From Streptomyces sp. TG1A-60 (lineage in GTDB: Bacteria; Actinomycetota; Actinomycetes; Streptomycetales; Streptomycetaceae), in the NCBI RefSeq assembly GCF_037201975.1, contig NZ_CP147520.1, positions 496,001 through 560,000 on the forward strand: a stretch of 64,000 nt of DNA, read 5' to 3'. The notes under the pieces were generated by a model, which saw only the letters and a program-made list of their open reading frames with translations, ran no database searches and was not told where the DNA came from. The position numbers and the translations under genes were made by a program. Below are positions 23,705 to 35,996 of the stretch, piece after piece (position 1 is the first letter of the stretch; each line of letters opens with the position of its first letter).

Positions 23705-24066
23705 TCAGGCGGCCTCAGCTCTGGAGATGGCCTCGTCGCGCATCCAGTCGAGGAACCGGCGCAGCGCGGGGATCAGTTCTTGGCCAGCGCATTCCCCGCT
23801 CGCGAAGACCCATGTTCGGCGGTAGGTCGGAGCAGTCGCACCGCTGTCCGTGGGGGGCGCCGAAGGTGCGCTGAAGGTGCGCTGAAGGTGTACCGCGCCG
23901 GCTCGGGTCCGTCTCTGACCACGTCGATGTGGGACTCGGTGATCACCGAAGGGTTGTAGGCGGTCGCGCGCGCCATCGCCGCATCGGATACGAAAACCTC
24001 GTGTTGGACCTGGGCCGCTTCCCCTGCCTCTTTGAGTACCAGGTTCCTCGCGCCTTTACGCACTTG
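23705..24066 (-). pseudogene. Remnant of a LysR-type regulator C-terminus
   Basis: The last codons before the TGA at 23705 read YRRTWVFASGECAGQELIPALRRFLDWMRDEA, typical of the C-terminal helix of LysR effector domains. Upstream, in another frame, SDAAMARATAYNPSVITESHIDVVRDGPEPARYTF looks like part of the same domain, so an internal frameshift is likely. The DNA-binding N-terminus is absent, removed at the IS1182 junction. Confidence 0.5.
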
Positions 24067-24100
24067 AAGACTCCGTTGCCCAATTCCGAGCGGTCGCCGG

Positions 24101-25805
24101 TCAGGCTGTGAGCATGTAGGCAAGGCGTTCGAGTCTGCTGGTCCGGGGTCTGCTGAGCGGGGTGGTGCTCCAGTAGGCGTCGAGCGGATGACGTTCAGGG
24201 CGGTGGCGGAGAAGAGGTGCTGGAGGCGGACCTTGGCCAGTCCTCGGTAGCGGGCGCGGCGGATTCCGGTCATGTCCAGGGCCTGGTTGACCGTGCCCTC
24301 GACCCCGGCGCGCAGTTTGTACTTGTCCCGCCAGGTCTGGGTCTTCTGCTCGGCGCGGGAGGCAGTCTGGATCTCGTGCAGCTCTTTCGGCCGCAGGGTG
24401 AGTATCCGACTGACCTTCCGGGAGGAGGTGCACTGCGTCCTTGACGGGCAGGCCCGGCAGTCGGTGGAGGCGAACTGGGCGACGATGGCGGGCCTGCCGT
24501 GCTGGGTGACCGGATACCACCCGGCGCTGGTGCGGCCGGCCGGGCAGGTGGCCTGACGCGCCTTCCAGTCGACGCGGAAAGCACTCTTGTCGAACCCCGC
24601 GGCGGCCTTGGACTGCGGCGAGTTGTCGGCCGGCAGCGGGGTGACCATCGCGGTCCCGTCCCTGCCGGCGGCGGCCAGCAGGTCCACACTCGGGTAGCCG
24701 GAGTCCAGATAGTGCTCGCCCGGGCGCAGGCCGCGTTCATCCAGGCGCTGCTGGATGCCGGCGGTGGCCTTCACGTCCGGCACCGTCGCTTTCGTGGTGT
24801 GCACGTCGGTGATCAGGTTCGGCGGCGCCGCGACGCGCTTCCCGTTCCCGTTCCCGTTCCCGGCTTCGGCTTCGGCTTCGGCTTCGGCTTCGGCTTCGGC
24901 TTCGGCTTCGGCTTCGGCTTCGGCGGGAGTGTTGCAGGTTTCGGTCAGATGAATCTTGTAGCCCAGCCAGAACAGCTCCTCGCCCTTGGCCGCCCACCGC
25001 GCATCCGCGTCGTAGGGAGAGGCCAGGCGGATATGACCGGGCGGGACGCCGTCTGTCTCGGCCTCCCGCTTCCTGATCACCTCCCGTCCCCGCGCGCCGG
25101 TCTCGATGCAGTAGGTCTGCACCAGCACCTGCCGCAGAAGCTCCACCGCGGGAAGCTCCGCCAGCCACGGTGGGGCGCCGGGCACGCGCACCGCCCGGCA
25201 CAGCATCAGCGCGTCCTGCCCGAACACCACCGCGAGCCGGTCCCGCTCGGTCTTCGAGGCCGGTAGCTTCCACCCGTCCACGCGCGGGCCGTAGCGGTGC
25301 GCCAGTTCGGCGACATCCACCGCGCCGGCCAGCCACTCGGGCGCGGCTGCGGCCAGCACCTCCAGCGCGGCGCGCACGCTCTCGCCCGCCAACTCCAGCC
25401 GGTTCAAGTCACGCACCGCGCTGATGACATGGGTGGAGTCGCTGCGCTGCTTGCCACCGGCCGCAACGAGTCCCTCGGCGCGGCAGTGCTCCAGGAGCCG
25501 GTCGAAGACCAGGCGTTCCATGCCGTGCTCGATCAGGCGGGCGCGGAACTTGGCCAGCACGCTGAAGTCGAAGCCGGGATCGGTCAATCCTCGGTGAACT
25601 GCAGGACAGTGACCAGCGAGAGCACCGCCGGGGAAAACCCCGGGGCGCCGCGCACCCCGAACGCGTCGGTGTACGGCTCATCGTCGAAGACCGCTTCCAG
25701 CCGGTCACGCAGGCGTATCGGCAGGCTCCCGGCCGGGAAAGCGGCTCCGGCCACCCTCGCTGTCTCCTCCGGAACCACAGGCAGCCCCTCCGGCCGCATC
25801 GACAT
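24101..25805 (-). pseudogene. IS1182-family transposase, two frameshifts
   Basis: Start at about 25805 (MSMRPEGLPVVPEETARVAGAAFP). The N-terminal frame ends at LVTVLQFTED with a stop near 25584; the protein resumes out of frame at LTDPGFDFSVLAKFRARLIEHGMER. About 28 family-typical residues between two LTD-like repeats are missing, consistent with a deletion. A second single-base deletion near 24187 moves the true C-terminus (LDAYWSTTPL...RLERLAYMLTA, stop at 24101) into another frame. The Cys-rich segment (CRACPSRTQC) typical of IS1182 is present, as are HIRLASPYDADARWAAKG and HYLDSGYPSVD. It also contains an expanded Glu-Ala repeat. Non-functional. Confidence 0.85.
24836..24924 (-). repeat. 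Hexanucleotide tandem repeats inside the IS1182 transposase
   Basis: About four copies of CCCGTT, then about ten perfect copies of CGGCTT, read on the - strand as (Gly-Asn) and (Ala-Glu) repeats. This short-period repeat is unusual in a transposase and prone to slippage. Confidence 0.9.
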
Positions 25806-28705: not shown

Positions 28706-29095
28706 TCAGCAGCTGGTGGCCCACTTGTGGGAGCGGAGGGTCTTCGGGGTCGAGTAGGTGTGCTTCAAGCCGTTGGCTGCGCAGCCTTCGTAGGTGCTGT
28801 AGTTGGCGTAGCGGTAGTACTTGACGGTGTCGTAGCCTCCCGAGTAGCCGTTGTTGTATACCGACCTGACCTTCGTGGTGCCCGACCACGAGCACGTGAT
28901 GGCACCGCCCCGCCAGTCGCTGTCGTCGGCGTCCCAGCTGCACATGCTTCCGCTACCGCCGCTGCCGGAGAAGAAGCAGACGTCGCCCCTCACACAGCGG
29001 TCGTAACCGCTGGCGGCCTGGGCTGAAGTGGCCGGGACGCCCAGGCCGACGGCCGTCAGGGCGAGTGTGGCGATGGTGACACCTAGTTTGCGCAT
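28706..29095 (-). CDS. Small secreted I36-domain protein
   Basis: 129-aa secreted protein. The ATG at 29095 follows AAGGGGGA. A signal peptide (residues 1-29, ...ATSAQA) leads to one peptidase-inhibitor I36-like domain: YDRCVRGDVCFFSGSGGSG, then CSWDADDSDWRGG and a final Cys (HKWATSC). The six conserved Cys suggest disulphides outside the cell. The I36 founder (SMPI of Streptomyces) inhibits metalloproteases; inhibition here is not shown. Last gene of the cluster, ended by a strong terminator; about 190 bp from the M23 gene. Confidence 0.85.
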   Translation of the reverse strand: MRKLGVTIATLALTAVGLGVPATSAQAASGYDRCVRGDVCFFSGSGGSGSMCSWDADDSDWRGGAITCSWSGTTKVRSVYNNGYSGGYDTVKYYRYANYSTYEGCAANGLKHTYSTPKTLRSHKWATSC

Positions 29096-29287
29096 GTTTG
29101 TTCCCCCTTGGTCTGCCTCGATCGAGGCGCATGAAGGTGCGGCCGGGCGTTGTGGGCGACGTTCAGTGATGTCGCTTCCGGTGTGCCACGCCGCTCCCGG
29201 TGACGTGTTCACACCATGGCCGACCGGGCCGGGTGCCGGTACCTCGTACATCAGAGGAGTGGCGGTACGCGCCGGCGAAACCCCCGC

Positions 29288-30235
29288 TCAGGCCGGGCAT
29301 TCGCCCCGCCACCGCACCGAGTCGATGGTCCGGCCGCCGGAGGCGAAGTTTCCCCGGCCCTCGTCCCAGCCGCGGTGCAGACAGGCGCCGCCGCCCTCCA
29401 CGAAGGTGACCTGGACGTGGTCGTAGCCCTCCTGAACGTTGCCGTTGTTGAAGAACGACTTGCGCAGACCGCACGCGCTGCTGGGGTCGTCGCTGTCGGT
29501 CCGGCACACGCTGCCGGTTCCGTCAGTGCCGGAGTAGAAGCACACCGAGCCCGGCGGGCAGTCCTTCCAGGCGGCGGAGTCGCCGCAGTTGGCGCTGGTC
29601 ACGCTCGGCCACTGCTTGCCGACGCCCGTGTACTCGACGCCGTTGAAGTGGACCGGCTTGCGGTGCCTTTCGTCGGTGAAGTCGCCGGTCGCCAAGTACC
29701 GCTGTTCGTAGTGGAGATGGGCCCAACTCGTGCCGCCGGAGGCGCCGATCCGGCCGATGCGCGTCGAGGGCTGGACCTTGTCGCCCTTCTTGACGTAGCG
29801 GTCGGGGGCGTCCTTGAGGTGGTAGTACGCCGTGAACCAGCCGCCCGCGTGCTTGACCTGAATGGTGTTCCCCGAGCCGTTGTCCCAGTAGGTCGCGGTG
29901 ACCGTCCCCGCGGCGGACGCCTGTACGGGCAGGCCGTCGGATCCGGTGTTGCCCTTCACCACGATGTCGAGTGCGGGGTCGTGCCCGGCGTCGTAGGTGT
30001 TGAGCTGCCACTGGCTCTGGCAGGAGAACGGCATCTGGAAGGCGGGCTTGCCCGGGGGCGGCGCCTGCGTGACCGATGCCCCGTCGGCGGAGGCGGAACC
30101 AGCAGCCGAAGCGGAACCGGAAGCCGAAGCGCCGGACATCGCGGCGGCTCCCAGCGACAGCGCGGCCGCACAGGCGAGCATCGCCGTACGCAGCCGGTGT
30201 CCAAGGCGCCGGACTTTCCTCTTGCTCTGCGGCAT
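29288..30235 (-). CDS. Secreted M23 endopeptidase fused to an I36 domain
   Basis: 315-aa secreted protein. The ATG at 30235 follows AAAGGGG; a basic signal sequence (MPQSKRKVRRLGHRLRTAML) ends near residue 45. The peptidase part is LytM/M23-like: HDPALDIVVKG supplies the first zinc His and Asp, and WAHLHYEQRY the HxH motif. M23 enzymes cleave peptidoglycan cross-bridges. From about residue 215 an I36-like domain follows (CPPGSVCFYSGTDGTGSVC...CGLRKSFFNNGN). A hydrolase fused to an inhibitor-type domain may be self-controlled or cell-wall targeted (inference). 52 bp downstream of the kinase gene. Confidence 0.86.
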   Translation of the reverse strand: MPQSKRKVRRLGHRLRTAMLACAAALSLGAAAMSGASASGSASAAGSASADGASVTQAPPPGKPAFQMPFSCQSQWQLNTYDAGHDPALDIVVKGNTGSDGLPVQASAAGTVTATYWDNGSGNTIQVKHAGGWFTAYYHLKDAPDRYVKKGDKVQPSTRIGRIGASGGTSWAHLHYEQRYLATGDFTDERHRKPVHFNGVEYTGVGKQWPSVTSANCGDSAAWKDCPPGSVCFYSGTDGTGSVCRTDSDDPSSACGLRKSFFNNGNVQEGYDHVQVTFVEGGGACLHRGWDEGRGNFASGGRTIDSVRWRGECPA

Positions 30236-30287
30236 CGGACCCCTTTCGCAGGGCCGGGCGGCGTGCCCGGCGGAGGGTGTGCTCCGC

Positions 30288-31730
30288 TCACCGTCCCGCC
30301 GGAGGGCCGTCACCGCGTACTCGTATCTCAGAGGGTTGGGCCGCCGAAGGGCGCGCATCACTGGCTCGGCACTTCTTCTCCCAGATGTGCGACCGGGTCC
30401 GCAGCGGCGCGGTGAAGTTCTCCCTGGCGCCCACCTCGACGCAGCCCAGAGGCTCCCGCAGCCGCTTCTGCGCGTAGTAGGCGACATCGACGAACTCCTC
30501 GCCCGCGTCGGTGTCGTGGCCGTTGTTGAAGACCGACCGGGCCTTCTTCGGGGCGGCCCAGCCGCAATGGTTCTCGCCTGCTGTCCAGTCGTTGTCGTCG
30601 CCGTCCCACGCGCACATCTCGCCCATGCCGTCCCGCTCGGTGAAGAAGCAGACGCTGCCCTTGTCGCACCGGTCATAACCCACGGCGCCCGCGGCTGTCT
30701 CGCCCGCCCCCGCCAGGGCGTTGTTCACCCCGAAGCCGAGCGCCGCGAGCCCGGCCGCCGCCATCGCGGCCCAGCGCCACCGCCGAGGCAGCGGGTGCGA
30801 CCGGGGCGAGCGGGCCGTGCCCGCCGCCGACTCCACCCTGCGCAGCAGTGACGCCGCGTCGTGGACGGCGCGCTCCCGGTGCGTGCGGGCCAGGCAGTCC
30901 GCGATGATCTGCTGCCAGGGGGAGGGGAGTTCGGGGGAGAGGCGCAACTCGTCATGGCCCCGCGCGTAGCGCACCGCCGCGTCCCGGCGGGCGGACGGGG
31001 TGGAGCCCGGCAGCGGCTGGGAGCCGGTGAGCACGACATGGGCGAGTACGCCGAAGGCCCAGACGTCCGCCGCCGGGCGGATCTGGCGGCCGCGTTCGCC
31101 GATCTCGGACCAGAGCAGCTCGGGCGGGGTGTAGTCGGGCGTGGAGAAGGCGGGGGTGTACGCGTGCGTGCCCTCCATCTCGGCGGCCATGTTGAAGTCG
31201 GCCAGGCGCACCGAACCGTCCTTCATGAGAAGGACGTTGGGTGGCTTGAGGTCGCCGTGCACCCAGCCCGCGTGGTGCAGCTGGTACAGGCCGGCGCAGA
31301 TCTGGGCCAGCAGCTCGGGCCCGCCGCGCGGTCTCGGCGTCCGGGAGAGCAGGGCGTCGAGGGACTCCTCGGCCTTCTCCAGTACGAGGACGGTGGCGCC
31401 GTCGAGCTCCGGGTGCCCGGGGTCGTCCACCGTCAGCGTCTCGTACAACCGGATGAGGCGTGGCGCCTGCAGCCGGCTCAGCAACTTCACCTCGCGCTCG
31501 GCGAGTTCCCGCAGATGGCGCAGCTGGCGTGGGGTGCTGGTGCCGGTGGGCAGGAACTTCAGCGCGGACACGGACGGTGGCTCCCCGGACGGGCCGACGC
31601 GTCGGCCCGCGTACACGCTGCCGAAGGCCCCGGCGGCCATGGGCTCGCGGACCTCCCAGCCGCCGACGCGATAGCCCTTGGGGACGTGCACGGAGTACGG
31701 ATGTCCCGGGCTCGTACGGAACGGGTTCAC
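30288..31730 (-). CDS. Transmembrane Ser/Thr kinase with extracellular I36 domain
   Basis: 480-aa membrane kinase. GTG at 31730 overlaps the FHA gene stop (GTGA). Kinase domain: G loop GAFGSVYAG, Lys in ALKFL, catalytic loop HGDLKPPNVLL (HGD in place of HRD) and DFN in place of DFG (VRLADFNMAAEM). One membrane helix follows (about residue 315, WAAMAAAGLAALGFGV). The outside part is an I36-like domain: YDRCDKGSVCFFTERDG, CAWDGDDNDW, CGWAAPKKARSVFNNG. Most actinomycete kinases use PASTA or beta-propeller sensors, so an I36 sensor is unusual. The Asp and Lys needed for catalysis are kept, so activity is plausible. Confidence 0.88.
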   Translation of the reverse strand: MNPFRTSPGHPYSVHVPKGYRVGGWEVREPMAAGAFGSVYAGRRVGPSGEPPSVSALKFLPTGTSTPRQLRHLRELAEREVKLLSRLQAPRLIRLYETLTVDDPGHPELDGATVLVLEKAEESLDALLSRTPRPRGGPELLAQICAGLYQLHHAGWVHGDLKPPNVLLMKDGSVRLADFNMAAEMEGTHAYTPAFSTPDYTPPELLWSEIGERGRQIRPAADVWAFGVLAHVVLTGSQPLPGSTPSARRDAAVRYARGHDELRLSPELPSPWQQIIADCLARTHRERAVHDAASLLRRVESAAGTARSPRSHPLPRRWRWAAMAAAGLAALGFGVNNALAGAGETAAGAVGYDRCDKGSVCFFTERDGMGEMCAWDGDDNDWTAGENHCGWAAPKKARSVFNNGHDTDAGEEFVDVAYYAQKRLREPLGCVEVGARENFTAPLRTRSHIWEKKCRASDARPSAAQPSEIRVRGDGPPAGR

Positions 31731-32482
31731 CGCACCGCCTCGCGGGGGCGGGTGAGCAGGACGAGATCGTCCTCCCGGACAAGGTCGAAGCGGAGCGCGA
31801 GCGAGACGAGCGACTCCTTCTTGCCGTTGAACCGGGGACCGGACTCCGCCGTGTCCGGGGCGGGCTTGAGGCGCAGCTTCACCGCCAGGTAGTCGATGTT
31901 CCACTGCACGGCGGCGCGGTTGGTGGTGGGCCAGATCGGTCGCAGCCGCTCGGCCAGCTGCTCGACGGTGGGCAGCTGCGCGTGCGGCGCACCGCGCAGA
32001 CGGGGCTCGCACAGCGCGGTCAGCACCGCGAAGTAGCGCTTGGAGCGGTCCAGGGCGAACGCCGGGGCGGTGCTGGCGCCGCCGGGGGACTCCTGGTCCG
32101 TCGCCCGGGTGTCGAGGTAGTCGTGGCGTGGCGCCCACACTTCGAAGCTGAGCAGCTCGCCGCCGGCGGGCAGTACGACCCGGGCGAACTCGAAGGGTAC
32201 CGGGGCGTTGAGGCGGCCCGGTGCGACCTTGATGTGCTCGCCCGCACCCTCCGGGTTCTCCACGACATAGGTCTGGGAGCGGCTGAGGTTGCTCAGTATC
32301 CAGAAGGTGTCGTGTGCGGATATCCGGCCGGCGGCCCGGGACACCCCTTCGTGCGCGATGGTGAGGTGAGGGCCTGGCGCCCCCGTGCTCCGGCCGAAGT
32401 CGAGCTGCTCCCCGGGCGCGAGGCGGATCTGTTCCCCGGGCCCGCCGTACTCGGGCGGCACCACGATGATGCTGTACATCAT
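31727..32482 (-). CDS. FHA-domain protein coupled to the I36 kinase
   Basis: 251-aa cytoplasmic protein. An N-terminal FHA-like domain (residues about 20-105; FGRSTGAPGPHLTIAHEGVSRAAGRI, then FWILSNLSRSQTYVV) would bind phosphothreonine. The C-terminal half (about 150-250; LCEPRLRGAPHAQLPTVEQLAERL, RAAVQWNIDYLAVKLRLKP) resembles a winged-helix-like domain found with FHA proteins. RBS AAGGGGGA precedes the ATG pair at 32482/32479. First gene of the operon, translationally coupled to the kinase, so it is the likely phosphorylation-dependent output or scaffold. Confidence 0.84.
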   Translation of the reverse strand: MMYSIIVVPPEYGGPGEQIRLAPGEQLDFGRSTGAPGPHLTIAHEGVSRAAGRISAHDTFWILSNLSRSQTYVVENPEGAGEHIKVAPGRLNAPVPFEFARVVLPAGGELLSFEVWAPRHDYLDTRATDQESPGGASTAPAFALDRSKRYFAVLTALCEPRLRGAPHAQLPTVEQLAERLRPIWPTTNRAAVQWNIDYLAVKLRLKPAPDTAESGPRFNGKKESLVSLALRFDLVREDDLVLLTRPREAVR

Positions 32483-32524
32483 TTGTCCCCCTTGTTGTAC
32501 TAACGAGCCCTAAAGGTAGGGGTG

Positions 32525-32555
32525 GTTCCCTTCTCAGGAAAAGGGAACGCGTTCC
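32525..32555. promoter_or_regulatory. Overlapping palindromes upstream of the FHA-kinase operon
   Basis: GTTCCCTT and AAGGGAAC (8-bp arms, 8-nt spacer, 32525-32548) overlap the perfect 12-bp palindrome GGAACGCGTTCC (32544-32555). They lie about 45-75 bp upstream of the FHA start, where a promoter is expected. Possible operator; the regulator is unknown. Confidence 0.5.
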
Positions 32556-32598
32556 ATTGGGGAGAGCGGCGTGCATCGCGGACGCGGTGAGGACCGCC

Positions 32599-32969
32599 TC
32601 AGCAGTGATCGATCCAACAGTGGGACAGCGGGGCGTACGTGCCCGCCAGGTTGCCCTGTTGGCGGACCGCGGTGCAGCCGGTCCGCCGGCTGTGCCGGGT
32701 GCGGTCGATGCCCGTGGGGGTGAAGTCGCGGCCCCGGAAGTACTCCACGCCGCCCGGCGCCCGGCCGTCGTCGGGGACGTTGACGAAGACCGACTTCACC
32801 GGGCGGTCCCGGGTCCAGGCGCAGGTCTCCTTCCCCGCGAGCCAGTCCGTGTCGTCCCCTTTCCAACTGCAGATGTCGCCGTTGCCGTTCTGTTCGCTGA
32901 AGAAGCAGACGGAGCCCAGCGGGGCAGTGGTGATATCCGTACGACGGCTCGTCCTCCCGGGAAGTGGGA
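32599..32969 (-). pseudogene. Fourth I36-domain gene, 5' end removed by IS256
   Basis: The frame from the IS junction reads APLGSVCFFSEQNGNGDICSW, then KGDDTDWLAGKETCAWTRDRPVKSVFVN and ends ...LSHCWIDHC at 32599. The I36 Cys and Trp pattern is intact, but the signal peptide and start codon are missing because IS256 begins at about 32970. No other piece of the gene was found beyond the IS. It may have been the first gene of the I36 cluster, or a separate unit. Confidence 0.8.
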
Positions 32970-33011
32970 GTGTTCAATGATCGGCGGATCCGATGATCAA
33001 GGAGACGCCAG

Positions 33012-33584
33012 ATGAGCGACACGGCCATCGAGCAGATACCGGGCGGCGAGCCCGCGGCGGTGAGTGACGAGCAGTTGGTTGCGATGCTCGTGGATCGGGC
33101 CCGGTCGGAGGGCCTGCAGCTGACGGGGGAGGGCGGGCTGCTCCAGCAGCTGACCAAGCGGGTGGTGGAGTCCGCCCTGGAGGGCGAGATCACCGATCAC
33201 CTCGGATACGAGAAGCACGACGCCGAGGGCCGGGGCAGCGGCAACAGCCGCAACGGGACCCGGGCGAAGACGGTGCTGACCGATGTCGGCCCGGTCGAGG
33301 TCAAGGTCCCCCGGGACGTGGCCGGGACGTTCGAGCCGGCCATCGTCAAGAAGCGGCAGCGGCGCCTGTCCGGGGTGGACGAAATGGTGCTGTCGCTGTC
33401 CGCGAAGGGCCTGACGCACGGGGAAATCTCCGCACATCTGGCCGAGGTCTACGGCGCGAGCGTGTCCAAGGCGACCATCTCCACGATCACCGACAAGGTG
33501 ATGGACGGGATGGCGGAATGGTCCAACCGCCCCCTGGACCGCGTCTATCCGGTGTTGTTCGTCGATGCGATCAACGTGAAGATC
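33012..33584 (+). pseudogene. IS256 transposase, N-terminal 191 codons
   Basis: The ATG at 33012 follows AAGGAG. The mutator-type transposase shows VVESALEGEITDHLGYEKH and the first catalytic Asp in PVLFVDAINVKI, then is cut by ISL3 after codon 191. Sequence resumes at 35292. The reconstructed protein is about 425 aa, normal for the family. Confidence 0.88.
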
Positions 33585-35287
33585 CGGGTTCTGTCGACGA
33601 TCTTGTGATCCGGACGGTTGAACGGGTCGTGCCGACTGTTCGCGATCATGCATCGCGTGCTCTCGTGATGTGCTCTTGGAGCTGTTTCCGCACCTGTCCG
33701 CGCTGCTGATCGAGGAGGTCGAACGACGGCCGGAAAAGGTGGTGTTGAGGACGCGGGTGCGGGCCACGACTGGGGCCTGCCGGTGCGGCCAGAGGTCGTC
33801 TCGGGTGCACGGTCGGTACGTACGGAGGTTGCGCGATGTCGCCGTTGGCGGGCTCGGCGTGGTGATCGAGTTGTGCGTGCGCCGATTCCGCTGCGAGAAC
33901 CCTGACTGCACAGCGGTGACGTTCGCCGAACAGATCGCGGGGCTGACCACCCCGCACAGTCGCTATAGCCCGCTGCTGCGTGGGGTGTTAACGCGGGTCG
34001 GGCTGGCGCTGGCCGGCAGGGCAGGAGTCCGACTCGCGGCCGCGGCCGGTATCACCGTGGGCAAGGACACGCTGCTGCGGCTGGTCAGAGCCCTGCCCGA
34101 CCCGGAGATCGGCCAGGTGGAGGTACTCGGTGTCGACGACTTCGCCTTCCGTAAAGGCCGCCACTACGGCACTGTGCTCATCGACATGGCCACCCACCGT
34201 CCACTGCACCTCTACGACGGACGTGAGGGAGAGGACCTGGCTGCCTGGCTCCGCGGTCACCCTGAGGTGAAGGTCATCTGCCGTGACCGTTCCGGCGGAT
34301 ACGCGGAAGGTGCACGGGCCGGGGCACCGCAGGCCGAGCAGGTCGCTGATCGCTATCACCTGTGGGCCAACCTCGGACAGGCGGTCGAGAAGTCGGTGAA
34401 CGCCCATCGTTCCCGCCTGACCGAACCAGTTCCCGCAACTGACGGTAACTCCGATGCCCTGGAGGCGGAGCCCGAGAAGGTCCAGCCATCGACGGAGCTG
34501 AAGATCGTGACTCGATTGCGTGAGCAGCATGCCGCCGCCCACGAACTGTGGGAGAAGGGCATGTCCAAGGCGGCGATCGGCCGGAAACTCGGGCTGCACC
34601 AAGCCACCGTCCGCAAGCTGGTCAACGCCCGCTCCGCGGACGAAGTCGTCGCCAAGAGCCTGCAACGGGCGCATATCGTCGATCCGTACGTCGGCCACCT
34701 GCACCGGCGCTGGAACGAAGGTGTCAGAAACGCCGCCCAGCTCTACCGCGAGATCCAACAACTGGGCTATCCAGGTGGCGAGTTGGCCGTCCAGCGTCAT
34801 CTGCGGCGCTACCGAACCGGGCGCGGACATGCACCCGTCCCCGGCCCCAAGCCGCCATCGGTCCGCGAGGTCACCTCCTGGATCATGACCCACCCCGAGC
34901 ACCTGCGGGACGAGGACGCCGACAAGCTCCACCGCCTACGCAAACGGGATCCCGAGCTCGACCGGCTCACCCTCCACGTCAGGAAGTTCGCCGCGATGAT
35001 GACCGGACGCCACGGCGACCGCCTCGAAGACTGGATCACCAACGCTGAGCAAGACACGCTGACCCCGCTCGCGGGCTTCGCCCGCAACCTCCGCCGCGAC
35101 TTCGACGCCGTCCGCAACGGACTGTCCCTGCCACACAGTTCCGGCACCGTCGAAGGCAACATCAACCGGCTGAAGATGCTGAAACGCCAGATGTTCGGCA
35201 GGGCCAGCCTCGATCTCCTACGCAAACGCGTCCTACTCGCACGGTGAGTCTGAACCGTCCGGATCACAAGATCGTCGACAGAACCCG
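33585..35287 (+). mobile_element. ISL3-family insertion sequence nested in IS256
   Basis: 1703-bp element with 35-bp perfect terminal inverted repeats, 33585-33619 (CGGGTTCTGTCGACGATCTT...) and 35253-35287. GATC at 33581-33584 and at 35288-35291 is a duplicated target. ISL3 elements usually make 8-bp duplications; the palindromic target GGATCC makes the true size ambiguous. One transposase gene. Confidence 0.9.
33670..35247 (+). CDS. ISL3-family transposase
   Basis: 525-aa transposase. An N-terminal zinc-finger region (CRCGQRSSRVHGRYVRRL, CENPDC) precedes a DDE domain with LGVDDFAFRKGRHYGT, VICRDRSGGYAEGA and HSSGTVEGNINRLKMLKRQMFGR. A helix-turn-helix lies in the middle (MSKAAIGRKLGLHQATVRKLV). 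The GTG at 33670 is the annotated start. All catalytic residues are present; probably active, given intact ends. Confidence 0.9.
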   Translation: MLLELFPHLSALLIEEVERRPEKVVLRTRVRATTGACRCGQRSSRVHGRYVRRLRDVAVGGLGVVIELCVRRFRCENPDCTAVTFAEQIAGLTTPHSRYSPLLRGVLTRVGLALAGRAGVRLAAAAGITVGKDTLLRLVRALPDPEIGQVEVLGVDDFAFRKGRHYGTVLIDMATHRPLHLYDGREGEDLAAWLRGHPEVKVICRDRSGGYAEGARAGAPQAEQVADRYHLWANLGQAVEKSVNAHRSRLTEPVPATDGNSDALEAEPEKVQPSTELKIVTRLREQHAAAHELWEKGMSKAAIGRKLGLHQATVRKLVNARSADEVVAKSLQRAHIVDPYVGHLHRRWNEGVRNAAQLYREIQQLGYPGGELAVQRHLRRYRTGRGHAPVPGPKPPSVREVTSWIMTHPEHLRDEDADKLHRLRKRDPELDRLTLHVRKFAAMMTGRHGDRLEDWITNAEQDTLTPLAGFARNLRRDFDAVRNGLSLPHSSGTVEGNINRLKMLKRQMFGRASLDLLRKRVLLAR

Positions 35288-35996
35288 GATCCGGGACGGG
35301 CAGGTGGCGAACCGTCCGATCTACGTCGTCATGGCCGTGACCGCCGAGGGCCACCGCGACATCCTGGGGATCTGGGCAGGCGACGGGGGCGAGGGCGCGA
35401 AGTACTGGCTGAGCGTGTTCACGGACCTGAAGAACAGGGGCGTCGACGATGTCCTGATGCTGGTCTGCGACGGACTGAAGGGCCTGCCCGAGGCGGTGGA
35501 GGCCGTCTGGCCTCGAACGATTGTGCAGACCTGCGTCGTTCACCTGCTGCGGAACTCCTCCCGGCACGCGGCCCGCCAGGACTGGGACAAGATCGCCAAG
35601 GCGTTGAAGCCCGTCTACACGGCACCGAACGAGAACGCCGCGACCGAGCGGTTCAGCGAGTTCCAGGAAGCCTGGGGCAAGAAGTACCCGGCGGTCATCC
35701 GGCTCTGGGAGAACGCCTGGGCCGAGTTCGTGCCCTTCCTCTCCTTCGACGTCGAGATCCGCAAGGTCATCTGCTCGACGAATGCGATCGAGTCCGTCAA
35801 CGCCCGCATCCGCAAGGCCGTTCGCGCCCGCGGCCACTTTCCCAACGAGGCCGCGGCCATGAAGTGCGTCTACATGGCGCTGATGAGCCTGGACCCGACC
35901 GGCAAGGGCCGCAAGCGATGGACCATGCGCTGGAAGGCGCCCCTGAACGCCTTCCAGATCGCCTTCGAAGGCCGGCTCACCCCGGCCGCCAACTGA
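35288..35996 (+). pseudogene. IS256 transposase, C-terminal part
   Basis: From RDGQVANRPIYVVMAV the IS256 protein continues with the second Asp (LMLVCDGLKG) and Glu (TNAIESVNARIRKAVRARGHF) to a TGA at 35996. Removing the ISL3 and one GATC joins it in frame to codon 191 at 33584. Confidence 0.88.

Follow-up and report, generated by a model that had tools for sequence, protein, structure and literature searches.

What does a bacterial receptor kinase read at the cell surface when its outer domain belongs to a family named after protease inhibitors, and when the same domain recurs in a peptidoglycan endopeptidase and in a small secreted protein encoded next to it? The question is raised by a locus of Streptomyces sp. 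TG1A-60 lying within the window analysed here, a stretch of 64,000 nucleotides that corresponds to positions 496001-560000 of the 7.83 Mb single-contig genome (NZ_CP147520.1). The locus is found 0.53 Mb from a contig end, and its genes run leftward in the order: a stump with an I36 domain, an FHA protein, a membrane kinase, an M23 endopeptidase and a small secreted I36 protein. The FHA-kinase module is conserved beyond the window, I36 is one among several outer domains that its kinases can carry, and in a sample of the genus the endopeptidase gene is confined to such loci. With a probability just short of even (about 0.48), we read the locus as a wall-sensing receptor kinase that signals to its FHA partner and has its I36 domain in common with the peptidoglycan endopeptidase.

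The FHA-kinase module and its outer domains

The locus comprises the following features:

32599..32970, minus strand: stump of a second receptor kinase, I36 outer domain only (BLAST)
31727..32482, minus strand: FHA protein of 251 residues, with the FHA domain at about residues 1-120 followed by a C-terminal helical part (AlphaFold, alignment of relatives)
30288..31730, minus strand: membrane Ser/Thr (Hanks) kinase with a GTG start (Pfam, AlphaFold)
30336..30692, minus strand: modelled I36 domain on the outer side of the kinase
29288..30235, minus strand: secreted M23 endopeptidase with a C-terminal I36 domain (Pfam; signal peptide and motifs by eye)
28706..29095, minus strand: small secreted I36 protein, 129 residues including the signal peptide (Pfam; signal peptide by eye)

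Pfam recognises both a kinase domain (PF00069, E-value 1.2e-33) and an I36 domain (1.4e-9) in the kinase. The former spans residues ~29-290 and is followed by a single transmembrane segment, placed by eye at residues ~335-356, and by an outer domain (residues ~350-456) that contains six cysteines. No PASTA repeats were matched by Pfam in this protein, and the PknB_PASTA model of NCBIfam aligns with kinase-domain positions only, scoring 64.5 bits against a cut-off of 450. The start codon of the kinase, GTG at 31730, overlaps the TGA stop of the FHA gene in the four bases GTGA. The same kind of NTGA overlap, with the predicted kinase start in frame, occurs in 127 of the 133 congeneric FHA-kinase pairs, all 133 of which end the FHA gene with TGA.

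The FHA protein of the window itself has no match in Pfam and none among the NCBIfam families. Pfam detects an FHA domain in 7 of 24 aligned relatives (best E-value 2e-4), and the AlphaFold model resembles FHA domains, with structural matches that span residues 1-121 only; the C-terminal part is modelled as helices. Residues R31, S48, R49 and N65 are invariant among the 24 aligned relatives, and the protein displays both the beta-sandwich and the phosphothreonine-contact residues by which FHA domains are recognised.

The distribution of this pair was followed in a congeneric sample of 392 genomes, with at most six candidates scored per genome in the FHA search; 186 of these genomes contain an FHA relative (E ≤ 1e-5). 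From the strong matches among those listed, 120 regions were taken, one of which (L140) comes from the window's own genome. Seven more listed matches, three other regions, 18 loci of other genera and two of the own genome were added, and the weaker congeneric relatives (~40 % identical) mostly stayed outside the set. A search with the FHA protein found 41 relatives, all in Streptomyces, at loci that partly repeat the 120 regions. More distantly, FHA relatives are present in 3 of 9 genera and 143 of 293 genomes of the order sample (E ≤ 1e-20), and in 9 of 137 genera and 36 of 394 genomes of the class sample. Within the 120 regions a kinase match starts at most 200 nucleotides from 132 of the 142 FHA genes; among the ten others, the kinase is slightly further away in seven, the contig ends in one, and no kinase was seen in two. 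Tandem FHA-kinase pairs are common in the fetched regions. The genome of the window harbours three additional FHA copies: one beside a PG_binding_1 kinase whose frame is split in this assembly (L140, C1:3095462 region), one beside a kinase bearing a different tail that has no Pfam match (L248), and one for which no nearby kinase was detected (L249).

In these regions, selected by their FHA gene, 118 of the 120 yielded 143 kinases, not counting that of the window. Their outer domains are SLT or lysozyme-like in 62 cases, I36 in 47 and PG_binding_1 in 22, so that I36 is one among several alternative outer domains. The remaining 12 kinases have no recognised outer domain; three of them stop at a contig end and the others possess a short or out-of-frame tail. 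PG_binding_1 is clearly matched by Pfam (1.4e-14). Among 17 rows of the SLT-like type, 10 match Pfam SLT at E ≤ 0.1, with a best value of 7e-8 and the first row slightly below the cut-off; the type also shows an invariant Glu-Ser pair and weakly resembles goose lysozyme (E-value 0.07). As far as sequence can tell, these two types belong to wall-cutting or wall-binding families. Exactly six cysteines are found in all 47 I36 outer domains, and a transmembrane segment precedes 126 of 131 outer domains. In the window kinase the motif HGDLKPPN is accompanied by DFN in place of DFG, and for the 141 kinases (143 examined) in the 15 motif classes listed, the HxDxKxxN motif takes the form HGD(L/I)KPxN in 140, and the DFG position reads DFN in 126, DFS in 10, DFG in 2, DFH in 2 and DFA in 1.

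Five changes are sufficient to place the three outer-domain types on a tree of 131 kinase domains; swaps have therefore been few, and wide reshuffling of outer domains can be ruled out. The tree was built by a quick method, with 56 of 128 inner branches weakly supported, and covers neither the 12 unrecognised kinases nor locus L077. A tree of 83 I36 rows was poorly resolved. In other genera, an SLT-type protein is encoded beside the FHA gene at 10 of 18 loci, on the same strand at six (L230-L233, L246 and L247) and on the opposite strand at L234, L235 (where no kinase match was detected), L236 and L239. The other eight loci have a weak kinase match or none, and no SLT domain.

Many of the Streptomyces cassettes are situated near the same genes. 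Of the 47 I36, 62 SLT and 22 PG_binding kinases, 26, 38 and 10, respectively, have a PurH-like gene close by, and 16, 58 and 4 a FolD-like gene (both named by eye from their first residues). Small secreted proteins of other families are encoded downstream of SLT-type and other kinases (e.g., at L154 and L112), and look as if other receptors had secreted neighbours too.

The I36 domains and the stump

Five places in the genome score above the curated cut-off of Pfam Inhibitor_I36 (PF03995), four of them within the window. The domains of the window can also be aligned with each other by BLAST (kinase with secreted protein, E-value 6e-27; with the stump, 2e-19; with the M23 protein, 3e-8), which identifies all four as homologous. 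PF03995 is matched by 36 of 37 aligned I36 domains (E ≤ 0.1), and domains of the present profile (E ≤ 1e-8) were found in 38 of the 121 genomes sampled for it. Coverage of the Pfam model differs between copies: those of the kinase and the M23 protein extend over about the first 52 of 69 positions, that of the secreted protein over positions 1-66.

The AlphaFold model gives the outer domain of the kinase a beta-gamma-crystallin fold. Calcium-binding beta-gamma-crystallins are characterised by the motif [ND][ND]xx[ST]S, which was seen in none of 47 kinase copies, none of 17 M23 copies and 5 of 19 soluble copies. The founding member of I36 is reportedly a Streptomyces metalloproteinase inhibitor with a crystallin-like fold. 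Sequence searches with the I36 domains matched no solved metalloprotease inhibitor; nor does a solved I36 inhibitor figure among the structural matches listed for the kinase outer domain, which is evidence neither for nor against inhibition. For protease inhibition by the I36 proteins of this locus, a less probable reading, the support consists of the family name and the fold.

Upstream of the FHA gene, the stump consists of a 117-residue fragment in a disturbed frame, from which the kinase part is missing and directly upstream of which transposase open reading frames (ORFs) begin. Its 17 best distinct matches are kinase outer domains (49-69 % identity), and its best soluble I36 match reaches 38 %, the relatives' own stump copies being set aside. 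This marks it, by homology, as the stump of a second receptor kinase, and with FHA-kinase pairs so often arranged in tandem, the simplest view is that the fragment is the remnant of a second pair. At L257 the stump preserves the same outer domain in one frame, with no kinase part detected, and adjoins an epimerase-like gene.

A preliminary description, made from the letters of the window, had noted four I36-like patterns at this locus, a kinase adjoining the FHA gene and an I36 outer domain on that kinase, and had staked its proposal in part on the identity of this outer domain. The Pfam and BLAST matches and the GTGA overlap bear out all three points. Its beheaded fourth gene does not encode a further secreted inhibitor, given that its nearest kin are the outer domains of kinases.

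The M23 endopeptidase and the secreted I36 protein

In the window, the M23 protein is matched by Pfam M23 (1.5e-18) and I36 (7.3e-9); a Sec-type signal and the motifs GHDPALDI and HLHYE were recognised by eye. HLHYE is present in all 27 relatives compared, and a strict pattern for the first motif in 15 of them. A non-catalytic domain placed C-terminally to M23 is typical of endopeptidases that are targeted to the wall.

In the genus sample this gene is linked to the FHA-kinase pair. An independent search (E ≤ 1e-45) defined an M23 family with one copy each in 29 of the 392 genomes, and all 29 genes are located 73 to 3382 bases from an FHA gene. Each of these loci also encodes an I36-type kinase (27 sampled loci, G319 and the window), and 18 of the 29 M23 genes carry I36 themselves. 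The position of the gene varies, either before the FHA gene or after the kinase. When counted from the kinases, an M23 gene on the same strand within 4 kb accompanies 28 of 47 I36-type kinases (at 27 loci), 1 of 62 SLT, none of 22 PG_binding and none of 12 unrecognised ones; leaving the last group out, the contrast of 28/47 with 1/84 gives a Fisher p of 6e-15. Five SLT kinases have an M23 gene within 5 kb, all at loci that hold an I36-type kinase as well. That M23 is placed solely beside I36 kinases holds in the congeneric sample and fails as a general rule in other genera.

The small secreted protein (Pfam I36, 1.6e-11) has counterparts in separate I36 genes near 15 of 47 I36-type and 4 of 62 SLT-type kinases. 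All 8 differences between its gene and that of L257 are non-synonymous and fall within the mature part; the other parts compared have 12 non-synonymous and 19 synonymous ones (Fisher p 0.003). Relative to L037, the counts are 16 and 6 against 41 and 42 (p 0.058). Such an excess of amino-acid change may reflect positive selection or relaxed constraint. Ratios of non-synonymous to synonymous rates (dN/dS) relative to L078, L080 and L088 were not used, as the I36 domains compared there are possibly non-orthologous. At L234 and L241, in other genera, the kinase lacks I36 while a soluble I36 gene adjoins the FHA gene, an arrangement compatible with the outer domain of the receptor having been acquired from a neighbouring secreted protein.

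Intergenic gaps of 52 and 192 nucleotides set off the M23 and the secreted I36 genes. Scans for Sigma-70 promoters and for terminators found nothing exceeding chance, and most of the k-mers ahead of the FHA gene trace back to an inverted repeat that resembles a terminator and precedes a short leader. A lipoprotein-like gene with no Pfam match is inserted between the M23 and secreted I36 genes at L080 (11309-12232, plus strand); a cluster of lipoprotein-like genes, perhaps of the same family, is represented near 13 of the 47 I36-type kinases, 5 of the 62 SLT-type ones and 1 of the 22 PG_binding ones. No such gene was seen in the window. Transposase-like ORFs surround the window copy of the module. 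Immediately upstream of the kinase stump, one such gene occupying 33012-35996 (33012-33608 and 35244-35996, plus strand) is seemingly split, by eye, by an unrelated transposase-like gene (33670-35247, plus strand). In another ORF of this kind (23773-25587, minus strand) a repeated hexanucleotide encodes a run of Glu-Ala units, about ten in number (by eye).

Proposed wall sensing, rival explanations and known systems

How might these parts work together? We propose that a receptor-kinase/FHA module conserved in actinobacteria, which would monitor the cell envelope, is represented at this locus by its I36 version. The kinase, predicted to reside in the membrane, would expose a single extracytoplasmic domain, here the six-cysteine beta-gamma-crystallin I36. 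Its ligand would most likely be a wall polymer, or wall fragments freed by the neighbouring M23 endopeptidase, for which the same I36 domain, often present, could serve as a targeting module. Binding outside would alter the activity of the kinase; the FHA protein would then dock on a phosphothreonine of the kinase or of a kinase substrate and, perhaps acting as a regulator, relay the output by way of its C-terminal helices. As for the small secreted protein, it may compete for this ligand in free form or carry it. A more specific version, in which receptor kinase, wall-cutting endopeptidase and free secreted binder compete through I36 for one envelope ligand and the kinase/FHA pair gauges how much of it is exposed, is clearly more tentative.

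A number of observations weigh against the wall-sensing proposal. With DFN in place of DFG, catalysis by the kinase has to be called putative. A transcriptional output through the C-terminal part of the FHA protein would be a guess. The association of the parts is also incomplete: 206 of the 392 genomes have no FHA match at E ≤ 1e-5, 19 of 47 I36-type kinases are without an M23 neighbour and 32 without a soluble I36 neighbour, and I36 is missing from 11 of 29 M23 genes, which means that the shared domain is not required. L081, which has no I36 kinase, possesses a different M23 gene, at a distance of over 5 kb from its PG_binding kinase, and in other genera M23 genes occur in the vicinity of FHA loci that encode SLT-type proteins (L232, L233 and L235). 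Finally, the kinase of other genera is often encoded opposite to the FHA strand (L234, L236 and L239). The overlap seen in Streptomyces is consequently not universal, and these opposite-strand pairs slightly lower our confidence.

Three other explanations have to be considered. The first one takes the I36 domains for genuine inhibitors of metalloproteases: the kinase would sense a protease outside, and the secreted and M23-linked copies would restrain such enzymes, perhaps M23 itself, a metallopeptidase. The Pfam family is named for an inhibitor and is matched by nearly all aligned domains, and the modelled crystallin fold would suit the founding Streptomyces inhibitor equally well. However, sister kinases bear SLT or PG_binding_1 at the very same position, and this favours the wall over a protease as the target. 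Searches by sequence retrieved no solved inhibitor, the kinase and M23 copies leave the last part of the Pfam model uncovered, and more than a third of the M23 genes do without I36. Inhibition, which the preliminary description had assumed for these proteins, was not borne out, and we consider it unlikely. Alternatively, the locus could be a conflict system, with the M23-I36 protein acting as a lysin against competitors, the secreted I36 protein binding the wall to protect it or to compete, and wall damage being reported by the kinase/FHA pair. The layout of the M23 protein, secreted and with an extra domain as in lysostaphin-like enzymes, the skewed substitutions relative to L257, the patchy occurrence of the M23 family and the position of the window copy near a contig end, amid transposase ORFs, would all fit. 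Against this, the excess is weaker relative to L037 and is explained equally well by relaxed constraint; many cassettes reside near the same core genes (PurH-like, FolD-like), unlike a typical conflict island; and no immunity-like gene was noticed, though no search was aimed at one. We hold this explanation to be improbable.

It is also conceivable, if similarly improbable, that the kinase/FHA unit is a housekeeping pair and that the M23 and secreted I36 genes were merely co-located through copying of I36, with no common ligand or pathway. The confinement of each outer-domain type to few groups of the kinase tree, the absence of M23 and soluble I36 at many I36 loci and the intergenic gaps in the window are compatible with this. 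Yet all 29 M23 genes are near an FHA gene, upstream in some genomes and downstream in others, an outcome that is hard to obtain without a functional link. The preliminary description had looked to a conserved neighbourhood elsewhere as a test of its signalling system, and every member of the M23 family in the 392 genomes indeed lies within 3.4 kb of an FHA gene. What survives of that system is the kinase/FHA unit, the I36 outer part and the M23 link, without the inhibitor reading; likewise, its set of FHA protein, I36 kinase, M23 and secreted I36 does co-occur, and is complete at only part of the loci.

A single cytoplasmic FHA-kinase module is combined with SLT, PG_binding_1 or I36 on the outside, and together with an endopeptidase gene confined to its locus in 392 genomes this offers candidates for the signal as well as a partner for receptors of the I36 type. 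The proposal would also shift I36, a family known for protease inhibitors, toward a binding or sensing role. An outer domain common to a kinase, a wall-cutting enzyme and a secreted protein hints at how the cell could monitor its own wall or wall-cutting enzymes. The signals of the many Streptomyces Hanks kinases are mostly not known, and to our knowledge it is an open question how actinobacteria sense their wall other than through PASTA kinases. A search of the open-access literature, with subscription papers outside its scope, did not turn up any description of an FHA-kinase pair whose outer domain is of the I36, SLT or PG_binding type.

Known systems resemble parts of this module. MEROPS/Pfam I36 inhibitors belong to the same family, PF03995, and share a crystallin-like fold (modelled here); the kinase copies differ in their six cysteines, the I36 domains here are fused to kinase or M23, and an inhibitory site would be putative. 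Lysostaphin-like M23 enzymes likewise combine a signal peptide, M23 motifs and a C-terminal non-catalytic domain (present in 18 of the 29), with the difference that the extra domain here is I36 instead of SH3b and that, in the genus sample, the gene stays beside a receptor-kinase locus. Kinases of the PknB/StkP type are also single-pass Hanks kinases with an extracytoplasmic wall-related domain, and PknB is described as activated by muropeptide binding to the PASTA domain (PMC4416010). In place of PASTA repeats, the module described here has I36/crystallin, SLT or PG_binding_1 domains, and it departs further from these kinases by DFN instead of DFG, by the overlap with an FHA gene and by its M23 and I36 neighbours. 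Pairing of a kinase with an FHA partner is reported for PknH-EmbR of Mycobacterium tuberculosis (PMC4601284); compared with EmbR, the FHA domain is N-terminal here and the C-terminal part helical. Wall-sensing Hanks kinases are already known, and the present module would be a variant of them which, by analogy, would work like PknB in sensing the wall and like PknH-EmbR in coupling kinase to FHA protein, while belonging to neither.

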